A stretch of DNA of 36,280 bases from a virus. Positions within the stretch are counted from its first letter, which is position 1. Each line of letters opens with the position of its first letter. The stretch lies in IMG/VR virus record IMGVR_UViG_3300037502_004178, positions 1 to 36,280 of that record; one strand, written 5' to 3'. The position numbers and the translations under genes are program-made. The notes beneath the pieces were generated by a model. That model was not told where the DNA came from, did not search any database, and saw only the letters and a list, made by a program, of their open reading frames with translations. Shown here piece by piece: positions 3,574 through 26,851 of this stretch.

Positions 3574-3738
3574 CTACACTTCCTGCTCCTGCTCAATAGA
3601 CCAGCGCTCTTTATCGCGAAGAATGCCTTCAATTATCTCCTCCGCACCTTCCTCCTCCGCGTAGAGCTCAGCCAGGTAAGAAGGATCGCAATTGGTAATG
3701 CGTTGGTACTTAAAATAAAACGAGAACTCATTATTCAT
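3574..3738 (-). CDS. Small acidic protein downstream of the DGR reverse transcriptase
   Basis: A 54-residue frame starting MNNEFSFYFKYQRITNCDPS with a glutamate-rich middle (AELYAEEEGAEE) and an acidic tail. GAGG lies 6 bases before its ATG, and the start overlaps the stop of the reverse transcriptase gene by 8 bases, an arrangement typical of coupled phage genes. No family recognised. Its position could make it an accessory of the retroelement or simply the next tail-operon gene (chaperone or head-tail assembly factor); the sequence alone does not decide. Confidence 0.6.
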   Translation of the reverse strand: MNNEFSFYFKYQRITNCDPSYLAELYAEEEGAEEIIEGILRDKERWSIEQEQEV

Positions 3739-4756
3739 ATTGCCTCACAAATGGAATTTTTAGTGTGGTTTTAAAAAGTGCATCTGCGTTTGCGTGTTTA
3801 ATACACCCGCTATAACTCGCAAGCACGGATGCGACGTGTTTGTTTGATACCTTACCACTTGCATAAAGCGTCCTAAGCCTTTTGACCTTATGCTTAAATT
3901 TTTTTGCCGTGCACTTTCTTAATAATCGGTGTGTTGCATAAATTCGGTAACCCAAAAAATCCAAAGATCTTCCACTTGAGGTCGACACCGGAAAGACCTG
4001 AGTTTTGTGGTTGGTTTTTAGCTTGAGCACCTGCCACAGCCACCTTTCAATGACGCATCTCAGGCGCTGAAGGTGAGCTTTGTCATGATGGATAATCACA
4101 AAATCATCCATGTAGCGAATATAAAAACGCTCACGCAACTCATGTTTTACAAACTGATCGAGCTCATTGAGGTACATGTTGGCAAATAATTGACTGGTTA
4201 GGTTGCCAATGGGGATCCCCGTTCCGCGAGCTTGCGTTTCTGCGCTATCGATTATCAAGCCGAGCAACTGCTTTGTTTTTAAGCAGCTTAAATGGGTGGA
4301 AATTATCGACTTAAGAACAGAGTGATCGATGCTATCAAAGTACTTTGATATGTCTGCCTTTAGGGCGTAAACCCTGCCGTGATTTCGCTTAACTATCCTT
4401 ATGAACTTCTGAGCCCTATCCGCTCCAGCATGAGTGCCTTTGCCTTTTCTGCATGCGTAGCTGTCAAAGATAAACCTCTTGTCTATTATCGGCTCGATAA
4501 CTCGGTGTATTGCGTGATGGACAACGCGGTCATCAAATGGAGGCGCAGAAATTAAGCGCTTCTTTGGCTCATAAACAAAGAACTTTCGATGAGGCTTGGG
4601 CCGATAGCTCTGCCAAATCAAATGATTGTGAGTGTTAATTAAATTCTCTTCTAGGTTTGCAAAATAGCGCATAATGGGAAGCTTGAGGGCTTTGTTCTTC
4701 TTTGCCTCATTGGCTGCGATAAATAGATTTTCAAAACTGCTTATTTGTTCGTACAT
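3731..4756 (-). CDS. DGR reverse transcriptase
   Basis: A 341-residue group II intron-like reverse transcriptase of the diversity-generating retroelement clade. Visible motifs: a catalytic Asp region KADISKYFDSIDH (residues 133-145), the DGR-specific IPIGNLTSQ (181-189, where most reverse transcriptases have QGxxxSP) and the active site YMDD (215-218). There is no maturase or endonuclease domain, so it is not an intron enzyme. In the characterised BPP-1 system this enzyme, with Avd, copies the template RNA while misreading adenines, and the cDNA replaces the variable repeat of the target gene. It is the last element of target-avd-TR-RT. All expected catalytic motifs are intact, so activity is likely. 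Confidence 0.95.
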   Translation of the reverse strand: MYEQISSFENLFIAANEAKKNKALKLPIMRYFANLEENLINTHNHLIWQSYRPKPHRKFFVYEPKKRLISAPPFDDRVVHHAIHRVIEPIIDKRFIFDSYACRKGKGTHAGADRAQKFIRIVKRNHGRVYALKADISKYFDSIDHSVLKSIISTHLSCLKTKQLLGLIIDSAETQARGTGIPIGNLTSQLFANMYLNELDQFVKHELRERFYIRYMDDFVIIHHDKAHLQRLRCVIERWLWQVLKLKTNHKTQVFPVSTSSGRSLDFLGYRIYATHRLLRKCTAKKFKHKVKRLRTLYASGKVSNKHVASVLASYSGCIKHANADALFKTTLKIPFVRQYE

Positions 4757-4769
4757 GGTTAGCCGATTG

Positions 4770-4791
4770 GCTCGGAGATTGCTCTCCGAGC
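4770..4791 (-). promoter_or_regulatory. Stem-loop in the TR-RT spacer
   Basis: GCTCGGAG, a 6-base loop, and CTCCGAGC form a perfect 8-bp stem 14 bases upstream of the reverse transcriptase start codon. In BPP-1 the RNA between TR and the RT gene is structured and is needed for cDNA priming; this hairpin could serve that role or modulate RT translation. Function is inferred. Confidence 0.55.
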
Positions 4792-4891
4792 TTGCGTGTG
4801 TTTCGGCTTCCTGCCTGCGGCCTTGGCATCCTTTCTTTCTGCGCTGGATGTAACGCCTTGGCGATACAACTTCTGGCGTGTTGAAGGGAAG

Positions 4892-5003
4892 CGAGACGAC
4901 TCCCGATGTTGCTGTTGCGATTCGAGCGCGGGTTGTTGAAGTTCAACGCGACCGGACCGGCGTTGCCGCCGTTGTTCCAGTTGCCGCGACGATACGGAAG
5001 TCG
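4892..5003 (-). repeat. DGR template repeat (TR)
   Basis: A 112-bp sequence between avd and the reverse transcriptase that aligns without gaps to the 3' end of the target gene. In the sense of the target it carries AAC/AAT codons exactly where the target varies; read in frame it gives NWNNGGNAGPVALNFNNPRS, the asparagine-rich look typical of DGR templates. It contains 25 adenines in the sense strand, of which 15 are changed in VR. It has an intact spacer to the RT gene, so this copy rather than the middle repeat is the probable active template. It is expected to act as RNA. Confidence 0.95.
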
Positions 5004-5029
5004 AGCAATGCCAAAGCCTTTGGTTGCCA

Positions 5030-5365
5030 CTACGCGACTGACTTAAGCCAGCCGCCCGTCATTTTACCGATCTCAACGTTTTTGCGTTGCCATATTTCAT
5101 ACTTCTTCAAATCCATATATTTGAGATCAAAAGAAACTCTAACCATATTTCTGAGTGTTGATATTTCAACGTCCAGATCTTGAATGGTAGTTTTCTTGTG
5201 GTATCGCTTAGACGCAATGATCGTGAGTCTGAGTATTTTGTATATGCACTGTCTTATTTCAGCGCAAAGCACATGTCGCTCATGCTTGGGAAATTGCTTC
5301 AACGCACAAAAGGCATACGCCATCATTTCTCTAACCTTGGTCTGAATGGTTAATTCTTCTTTCAT
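5030..5365 (-). CDS. avd: Avd, DGR accessory variability determinant (copy 1)
   Basis: A 111-residue basic, helical protein (MKEELTIQTKVREMMAYAFC at the start, GGWLKSVA at the end), matching the four-helix-bundle Avd proteins that form a pentamer and bind the DGR reverse transcriptase and template RNA. It lies between the target gene and TR, as in BPP-1. It is identical in protein sequence to the second avd 557 bp away. The upstream Shine-Dalgarno candidate (GGAG) is rather far from the ATG. The stop codon lies 27 bases upstream of TR in the sense direction. Confidence 0.88.
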   Translation of the reverse strand: MKEELTIQTKVREMMAYAFCALKQFPKHERHVLCAEIRQCIYKILRLTIIASKRYHKKTTIQDLDVEISTLRNMVRVSFDLKYMDLKKYEIWQRKNVEIGKMTGGWLKSVA

Positions 5366-5394
5366 TAATTTAAACTTAGATCTCCAGTATTACA

Positions 5395-5410
5395 CCGCGC
5401 TATCGCGCGG
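5395..5410 (-). promoter_or_regulatory. Duplicate of the DGR target hairpin, beside the chimeric repeat
   Basis: CCGCGC-GATA-GCGCGG on the minus strand, an exact copy of the hairpin downstream of VR. Here it lies upstream of avd copy 1 and downstream of the chimeric TR/VR repeat, where no target gene ends. It was carried along by the 557-bp duplication. Confidence 0.8.
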
Positions 5411-5448
5411 CAATCAAAACACAGCACTCAAAACTCAAGACGCGAAAA

Positions 5449-5560
5449 CGAGACGACTCCCGACGCTGCTGCCGCGATTCGAGCGCGGGTTGTTGAAGTT
5501 CAACGCGACCGGACCGGCGTTGCCGCCGTTGTTCCAGTTGCCGCGACGATACGGAAGTCG
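5449..5560 (-). repeat. Chimeric VR/TR repeat (middle copy)
   Basis: This 112-bp copy matches VR over its sense 3' part, including VR-specific bases at 5464, 5466, 5472 and 5473 and the VR downstream flank. From 5479 on it matches TR at every position that separates the two, and its 5' flank is TR-type. The switch therefore falls within 5474-5478. It keeps most template adenines but has the VR-type initiation end and the downstream hairpin, and lacks the TR-RT spacer. It could be a non-coding acceptor for mutagenic homing, a second template, or inert. Confidence 0.9.
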
Positions 5561-5586
5561 AGCAATGCCAAAGCCTTTGGTTGCCA

Positions 5587-5922
5587 CTACGCGACTGACT
5601 TAAGCCAGCCGCCCGTCATTTTACCGATCTCAACGTTTTTGCGTTGCCATATTTCATACTTCTTCAAATCCATATATTTGAGATCAAAAGAAACTCTAAC
5701 CATATTTCTGAGTGTTGATATTTCAACGTCCAGATCTTGAATGGTAGTTTTCTTGTGGTATCGCTTAGACGCAATGATCGTGAGTCTGAGTATTTTGTAT
5801 ATGCACTGTCTTATTTCAGCGCAAAGCACATGTCGCTCATGCTTGGGAAATTGCTTCAACGCACAAAAGGCATACGCCATCATTTCTCTAACCTTGGTCT
5901 GAATGGTTAATTCTTCTTTCAT
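5587..5922 (-). CDS. avd: Avd, DGR accessory variability determinant (copy 2)
   Basis: Same 111-residue protein as the other avd, with the same upstream sequence. This copy is the one next to the true target gene, 69 bases beyond its stop codon, and is followed by the chimeric repeat. Because Avd acts as a pentamer with the reverse transcriptase, a second intact gene may raise its dosage; identity of the two copies argues for a recent event rather than selection for divergence. Confidence 0.88.
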   Translation of the reverse strand: MKEELTIQTKVREMMAYAFCALKQFPKHERHVLCAEIRQCIYKILRLTIIASKRYHKKTTIQDLDVEISTLRNMVRVSFDLKYMDLKKYEIWQRKNVEIGKMTGGWLKSVA

Positions 5923-5951
5923 TAATTTAAACTTAGATCTCCAGTATTACA

Positions 5952-5967
5952 CCGCGCTATCGCGCGG
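5952..5967 (-). promoter_or_regulatory. DGR target-recognition hairpin downstream of VR
   Basis: On the minus strand CCGCGC-GATA-GCGCGG: a perfect 6-bp GC stem with a GATA loop, fitting the GRNA tetraloop described for hairpin/cruciform elements that follow the IMH of phage DGR target genes. It begins 24 bases past the target stop codon. In BPP-1 such a hairpin increases retrohoming efficiency and target recognition. Confidence 0.8.
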
Positions 5968-5991
5968 CAATCAAAACACAGCACTCAAAAC

Positions 5992-7293
5992 TCAAGACGC
6001 GAAAACGAGACGACTCCCGACGCTGCTGCCGCGATACGAGCGCGGGTAGTAGAAGTTCAACACGACCGGACCGGCGCTGCCGCCGTCGCCCCAGGCGCCG
6101 CGACGACACGGAAGCCGCTCACCATCGGTGTTGTAGTAAAATCGACCGTTAAGCGCTTTTGTGCAATCAATCGGCTCGATGAGTAATTTTTGCAGCAATT
6201 CATGGTCGACGTAGTCTGCCGTTTTTGTAAATAATCCCCACGCCTGATTGCTCGAAGCCGGAAGAGATGGCGCTGTCATTGAGAAGACGTGCCCCTCGTT
6301 AATGTATCGCCCCGTTGCTACCCATTGCACCTCCGGCTGGCCGGAATATTCAGCTACGTAAAACTGACCGTCGACCATTTTTAGTCCGTCAATCCACTCC
6401 CAAACATTGCCAACCCAATCGGATACACCAAACGCGGTGCCGTCATGACGCCATGCGTCCGGCCCAGAACCGGTAAGTGTTGCACCATTGCCGGTGCGGT
6501 CGTTAGAGATTAGACCGTCAACGCGCCTTCCCATCTCACTAATAGCATCATGAGATCGCCCCCACTCCGTGTTCCCGCGCGGTTGCTGTCCGCCGTTCGC
6601 CAAGATTGAAAGAATTTGCCAATTAATAAATGCATCGTGATAGACATCAAGTAGGACAAATCCTCCCGCAAGCTCGCTTGCTTTGGCTTTGAATTCATCA
6701 AAGTTGAGGCTGACATAGGGCGCAAGTCCCGCTCGTGATACGGTCGCGCCATTGACGTTTACTGATTTGTGAATTGCAATACGACACTCACTGCGATACG
6801 TGCCGTCAGAGCGTCTAAATACATCTATCGGCCCTGTAAATGGCATGTCAGGGATCTGCAATTGCTCATATGCCTGAATAGGCCAAACACCGAATAAATG
6901 CGCGTTGCCTAATGCGTCTTTAATGATCTCAAGGCGACCGCCAGACGCAAGGACAATCGCTGTTGCAGCTACGTCCCAATCAAGCCAGTCAGAGCTTATC
7001 TTTCCCTCACTATTCGCTAAAGGTATTTTGCCAGGCGAAGGTTCTAGCGTGGCTGTCCCACCAGTAACGACGGCGGCGACGTTATCGGCGGCTGTTTTAG
7101 CTTCTGCCGCTTTTTGCGTTGCCAGGTCTGCTTTCTCGATAGCTACCGCTTCAGATGCTTTCGCTACAGTGGCGGAGTTGGCTGAATCGAGAGCATTACC
7201 TTGCAGTGCTGTATTGGCCTTCACGTACTCTTGTAGCAATTCCGAGGTTTCATTGGTTAGCGCATTAACGCTGTCAACTAATTCTTGGCTCAT
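5992..7293 (-). CDS. DGR target: variable receptor-binding tail protein with FGE/C-type lectin-like domain
   Basis: A 433-residue protein. Residues 1-75 are an Ala-rich helical, probably coiled-coil, region suited to trimerisation. The C-terminal part carries WVGNVWEW (293-300), a signature of formylglycine-generating-enzyme/C-type-lectin-like folds used by DGR variable proteins. Residues 393-429 are encoded by VR and end in GSRLVFAS, the conserved DGR terminus. Variable positions relative to TR include N400A, N402G, N403D, N406S, N415Y, N416Y, N420Y, N422G, N424S and I425V. The start overlaps the upstream adaptor gene stop (TAATG) with GAGGT before it. It is the likely analogue of BPP-1 Mtd, though the fold and sequence differ. 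Confidence 0.88.
   Translation of the reverse strand: MSQELVDSVNALTNETSELLQEYVKANTALQGNALDSANSATVAKASEAVAIEKADLATQKAAEAKTAADNVAAVVTGGTATLEPSPGKIPLANSEGKISSDWLDWDVAATAIVLASGGRLEIIKDALGNAHLFGVWPIQAYEQLQIPDMPFTGPIDVFRRSDGTYRSECRIAIHKSVNVNGATVSRAGLAPYVSLNFDEFKAKASELAGGFVLLDVYHDAFINWQILSILANGGQQPRGNTEWGRSHDAISEMGRRVDGLISNDRTGNGATLTGSGPDAWRHDGTAFGVSDWVGNVWEWIDGLKMVDGQFYVAEYSGQPEVQWVATGRYINEGHVFSMTAPSLPASSNQAWGLFTKTADYVDHELLQKLLIEPIDCTKALNGRFYYNTDGERLPCRRGAWGDGGSAGPVVLNFYYPRSYRGSSVGSRLVFAS
6006..6117 (-). repeat. DGR variable repeat (VR) with IMH at its 3' end
   Basis: The last 112 bp of homology in the target gene. It differs from TR at 16 positions: 15 at sense-strand template adenines (11 A to G, 3 A to T, 1 A to C) and one C to T at 6062. 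The sense 3' end (GGGAGTCGTCTCG) is the invariant IMH-like segment shared with TR, lacking adenine changes. Homology ends a few bases before the target stop codon. Confidence 0.95.
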
Positions 7294-26620: not shown

Positions 26621-26713
26621 CTTCTTAGTTTGAAAGGCTTATGGTAGACTTCGAGATGGGCGCTCTTGGCTTATTTGCCAAAAGTGACTCTGATGTTTGC
26701 TTATGGCAGATAA

Positions 26714-26786
26714 ACAAAAGCCCCGTTATCCGGTTACTGTTGGAAGCAGTAATCTTCACTTAACGAGGCCTTAGTCATGAACTTAC
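26714..26786 (-). ncRNA. Sok-like antisense RNA
   Basis: On the minus strand TATAAT (26793-26798) with TTGCCT 18 bp upstream (26817-26822) predicts a start near 26786. About 70 bases on, GCCTCGTTA pairs with TAACGGGGC to form a terminator stem followed by UUUU; an inner TTACTG/CAGTAA stem is also present. The RNA covers the mok start region, as Sok does in plasmid R1, where it blocks toxin translation and decays quickly after gene loss. Confidence 0.75.
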
Positions 26787-26851
26787 AACATGATTATACA
26801 GCCTCTTCACCACTGGAGGCAATGAAATGCCTAAAAATAAAACTGCGTTAG
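26777..26851 (+). CDS. Mok-like overlapping leader frame
   Basis: A 24-codon frame (MNLQHDYTASSPLEAMKCLK) that begins just after the Sok-complementary region and ends inside hok, overlapping its start out of frame. This is the exact arrangement of mok, whose translation is needed for hok translation and is the step blocked by Sok. Confidence 0.6.
   Translation: MNLQHDYTASSPLEAMKCLKIKLR

Follow-up and report, generated by a model that had tools for sequence, protein, structure and literature searches.

The window—the whole stretch of 36,280 bases that was analyzed, i.e. the virus record IMGVR_UViG_3300037502_004178—bears a canonical DGR plus an extra avd gene and a hybrid TR/VR repeat. Most probably, this arrangement arose when the avd unit was recently duplicated in tandem, by unequal recombination of TR and VR on the DNA level or by replicative template switching. 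The duplication displays an exact hybrid junction, an identity over 562 bp, and no scars of reverse transcription, and syntenic kin carry a single unit.

Organization of the DGR locus

The record is prophage-like in gene content, with genes for an integrase, an S24-type repressor, a DnaB-like helicase, a terminase, a P22-like portal, a capsid, and an internal virion protein. On the minus strand, which encodes all elements of the DGR, the order is target(VR)–flank hairpin–avd–hybrid repeat–flank hairpin–avd–TR–Sp–RT. The target gene (5992..7293, 433 aa) encodes a C-terminal variable domain with VR (6003..6117) at its end. The target protein matches PDB chain 5vf4 (phmmer E 3.4e-36), PHROG 2889 and—weakly—FGE-sulfatase (E 0.021); a C-type-lectin/FGE-like variable domain is a possibility. 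Downstream of VR lies the hairpin CCGCGC-GATA-GCGCGG (5952..5967), whose GRNA-type loop corresponds to the consensus of phage DGRs at this place (PMC3240598); similar hairpins occur at the equivalent position in the relatives that were folded.

The Avd accessory protein is encoded twice, by a target-proximal (5587..5922) and an RT-proximal copy (5030..5365). Both ORFs are intact, mutually identical, and 111 aa long, and the protein matches bAvd PF22296 (4.3e-32) and the curated model NF033474, both above cut-off. Between the copies lies the hybrid repeat (5446..5560), followed downstream by a second copy of the VR-flank hairpin (5395..5410). After the RT-proximal avd come TR (4889..5003; placed by repeat comparison), the Sp spacer (4757..4888), and the RT gene (3731..4756, 341 aa). 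The RT is of the DGR type: it matches RVT_1 (1.7e-24) and the phage RT family PHROG 1423 (5.7e-135), bears the motifs IGNLTSQ and YMDD, and finds its best PDB match in 8ub7 (E 5.8e-55)—deposited as reverse transcriptase and presumably the BPP-1 bRT-Avd complex.

TR itself lies inside an open frame (4731-5030, minus strand) whose GTG start overlaps the avd stop codon (TAGTG). The frame of the hybrid has the same GTG start overlapping the avd stop and comprises 50 codons. An Rfam scan of the DGR locus yielded no DGR-related match above threshold; a sok antitoxin RNA match lies at 26658-26838 on the plus strand (62 bits vs a gathering score of 59).

The hybrid repeat and its junction

The three repeats (4889-5003, 5446-5560, and 6003-6117) are spaced by 557 and 557 bp, and the identity to TR is 96% for the hybrid and 85% for VR. 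A base-by-base comparison of each position p with p+557 shows unbroken identity over 4917-5478, i.e. 562 bp, which equal 5474-6035, so that the tandem duplication as a whole extends over 4917..6035. An exact repeat of this length cannot be due to chance. Coordinates and description of the tandem avd-TR duplication with three repeats 557 bp apart, as given in the sequence-only reading, hence hold. The same reading had the middle repeat VR-like for 30 sense-3' bases plus flank and hairpin and TR-like beyond, which is confirmed at each base: 5' of the switch in the sense direction, no base of the hybrid departs from TR, and 3' of it none departs from VR. This VR-like stretch covers 5449-5478 within the repeat, and the identity to VR runs on through flank, hairpin, and avd. 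At the switch, TR and VR have only the pentamer ATCGC in common (4917-4921; 5474-5478 in the hybrid), and, counted from the 3' end of VR, the switch—somewhere within 5474-5478—falls at ~25-30 bp, in the IMH zone. The longest exact block that TR and VR share now is 15 bp.

VR differs from TR at 17 positions of the 115-bp block, 15 of which are among its 25 TR adenines. Pooled with eight relatives, changes affect 109/212 adenines vs 7/800 non-A sites—an adenine-specific pattern, in which VRs retain 49% of the adenines. The hybrid carries all four VR A→G changes, AACAGCAACATC to GGCAGCAGCGTC (GG..G.G vs AA..A.A), and an independent re-creation of GGGG would have a chance of ~0.7% at the pooled A-to-G rate. 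A fixed IMH/IMH* difference as source of the four shared G's was rejected, as these sites vary in the VRs of relatives (ATCAGCCTCATT in L164, GTCAGCAGCTTC in L194, and others). Hence, they are mutations of the window's own VR, which recombination brought into the hybrid. Two closely related phage DGRs, L159 and L194, bear the same TR with different VR states and represent a natural snapshot of homing.

Relatives and ancestral state

Each of the 31 loci showing target, avd, and RT—some of them from the same phage—has one avd; the window alone has two. In this count, L215 enters with one avd, as its two pieces are overlapping parts of a single frameshifted gene. The unduplicated locus, sought in related prophages as the sequence-only reading had proposed, was found in L164, which is syntenic with the window (adaptor-target-avd-RT-internal virion protein) and bears one avd and one TR. 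A single avd is also present in L189, L192, L160/L193, L159/L194, L161, L162, and more distant loci. The state in these relatives, including the syntenic L164, marks the duplication of the window as derived, and zero mismatches in 562 bp mark it as recent.

In L188 (6001-7221), a target homologue (67%) is followed by 6 kb that match neither avd nor RT, and is possibly an orphan former DGR target. Comparison of L163, L165, L170, and L173 with L164 shows that the slot between adaptor and internal virion protein is occupied by a DGR cassette in some cases and by other sequence in others; the L164 prophage family hence seems to have a modular slot for receptor binding. The 1.5-Mb genome G331 (L236, L248, L252, L254, L256-L258) bears 12 matches to the bAvd family, several of them equal-scoring and kilobases apart.

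Origin of the duplication

The proposed event would start from a functional-looking phage DGR of the order target-VR-hairpin-avd-TR-Sp-RT. TR of one copy would recombine—or template-switch—with VR of another, and the product chromosome, reading TR into VR, would then bear VR-avd-(TR/VR hybrid)-avd-TR. A tandem repeat that is exact over 562 bp should readily collapse, and the duplication might accordingly be transient.

Could the DGR itself have made the duplication, by homing a long cDNA of VR-flank, avd, and TR into VR? Homing links TR sequence to IMH close to the 3' end of the repeat, and the switch is located there, as this mechanism would have it. However, reverse transcription is expected to change about half of the adenines, and the copies of the duplicated unit disagree at 0/161 sense adenines; under a cDNA origin, this would have a probability of about 3e-51. 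The TR-like part of the hybrid likewise has 18/18 adenines unchanged, 11 of which are changed in VR. Moreover, a motif in the avd 3' end reportedly halts reverse transcription (PMC12875486). An RT-mediated duplication, hardly credible on the adenine count, was rejected, which leaves DNA recombination or template switching; it is this pathway that we infer.

A more serious concern is an artefact of assembly or amplification, in which a single avd unit was traversed twice owing to the likeness of TR and VR, perhaps helped by mixed VR variants or a chimeric molecule. The perfect identity of the two units, the uniqueness of the duplication among all loci examined, and the source—a virus record of 36,280 bases whose method is undisclosed—would all agree with it. 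Yet the 5 bp shared by TR and VR at the junction and the <=15 bp of exact match elsewhere are too short for k-mer joins, and the artefact would need a VR variant that is TR-like over one k-mer length and nevertheless carries GGGG. Relatives that are near by capsid bear numbers of the kind given to isolate genomes—a hint, but no proof, of a clonal source. We therefore regard an artefact as unlikely, with a chance that still has to be reckoned with.

For the recombination of TR and VR, the short exact homology—5 bp at the switch and at most 15 bp nearby—counts against the ordinary RecA pathway, as classical RecA exchange is inefficient at 85% identity with such blocks. The event went through annealing or slippage, unless VR was then closer to TR in sequence. 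The genes scanned, a subset of the record's ORFs, included no identifiable phage annealing recombinase, and a search for the same TR/VR junction in viral contigs—a set from which near records may be missing—returned no second copy. In a reconstituted BPP-1 DGR, TR-VR recombination was rare (PMC12875486). The earlier statement that TR and VR recombine as ordinary homologies thus stands for the recombination as such and has to be narrowed to a homeologous or microhomology exchange—or to an older, more TR-like VR.

A special case of this recombination is a crossover provoked by the DGR: abortive homing would leave a nick or break at the IMH or hairpin of VR, and the TR region of a sister chromosome would serve as template for the repair. 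Breaks at the IMH/hairpin belong to the published model (PMC3240598), the switch falls into the IMH zone, and a hairpin able to form a cruciform lies downstream. On the other side, there is one event only, and the position of the switch fits plain recombination equally well, which makes the provoked crossover rather improbable. Taken together, the unequal recombination of VR and TR claimed in the sequence-only reading is the best-supported origin, given the exact junction, the unduplicated syntenic relatives, and the unchanged adenines; its main interpretation is probably right. A general route for DGR expansion, as also suggested there, is overstated on the basis of one unreplicated case from a record without reads.

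Predicted role of the hybrid repeat

The Sp spacer recruits RT-Avd and primes cDNA synthesis (PMC12875486). In the window, it bears conserved GCCAGAA, AAAGGATG, and GCCGAAA-like motifs that are shared with relatives, and its stems covary, with two-sided changes at 13/24 predicted pairs in a set of only 8 sequences. No Sp is present 3' of the hybrid, where the VR flank follows instead; the hybrid as a second template is thereby disfavored. An acceptor requires the IMH zone, flank, and hairpin (PMC3240598), all of which are found 3' of the hybrid repeat, with the sequence of VR at every base past the switch. Hence, the hybrid would be at most an extra acceptor—which is plausible from its sequence elements—and probably not an extra template, so that of the "extra templates or acceptors" proposed earlier only the latter are retained.

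Mutated adenines as a sign of acceptor use are absent from the TR-like part of the hybrid (0/18 changed). As VR keeps its four G's and the hybrid all 18 TR adenines, neither appears to have been homed since the event, which itself is very recent. The hybrid lies outside the target gene in its 50-codon frame, and homing there would hence leave the target protein unaltered—a silent acceptor. The avd dose is possibly doubled. Quite doubtful, in our view, is the wider idea that the hybrid, next to a doubled avd, acts as a live acceptor without coding function and that DGR breaks at IMH or cruciform promote TR x VR crossovers. If true, DGRs would themselves be a source of copy-number variants and of new acceptors.

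Comparison with known systems

The locus combines known parts in a rare rearrangement and is not a new system, and its significance is moderate. It preserves, as a clean fossil, a DNA recombination of the template of a DGR with its target, and suggests how DGR modules get copied—or lose avd in the reciprocal product. Furthermore, the hybrid offers a natural internal test of the acceptor cis elements, i.e. IMH zone and hairpin, free of the coding constraint of the target gene.

Among 218 RT-bearing loci surveyed, no other hybrid of this architecture was present. Some repeat pair passed the scan in 173/218, a figure that may include repeats unrelated to TR/VR, and the multi-repeat loci inspected (L036, L107, L126, L140, L147, L153, L155, and L156) bear repeated VR/target regions or TR/VR-unrelated repeats. 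In the open-access literature, we found no published case of a duplicated avd or a TR x VR hybrid, which is not proof of absence.

The window resembles the BPP-1-type phage DGR (mtd-avd-TR-brt) in gene order, Avd, RT, A-specific VR/TR differences, the GRNA-loop hairpin after VR, and the spacer between TR and RT, and adds to it the second avd and the intervening hybrid repeat. The DGRs of the Vibrio phages 1F273_PE002, vB-Vv-ZX4290, and VP58.5 and of prophage L164 bear the same cassette, with Avd 58-78% and RT 55-75% identical; unlike the window, they have a single avd, a single TR, and no hybrid. More than two repeats of the TR/VR family are shared with DGRs bearing several VRs or TRs, and multiple VRs occur in 28.6% of non-redundant DGRs (PMC6642488). 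There, however, most of the extra repeats are VRs that belong to target genes, or else additional TRs, whereas the third repeat of the window is chimeric and lies outside any target gene. Duplicated and recombined DGR modules are also known from the intragenomic DGR duplication in Thiohalocapsa PB-PSB1 (PMC10907252). That case is transposon-linked and involves larger modules—in the window, TR and VR themselves recombine.
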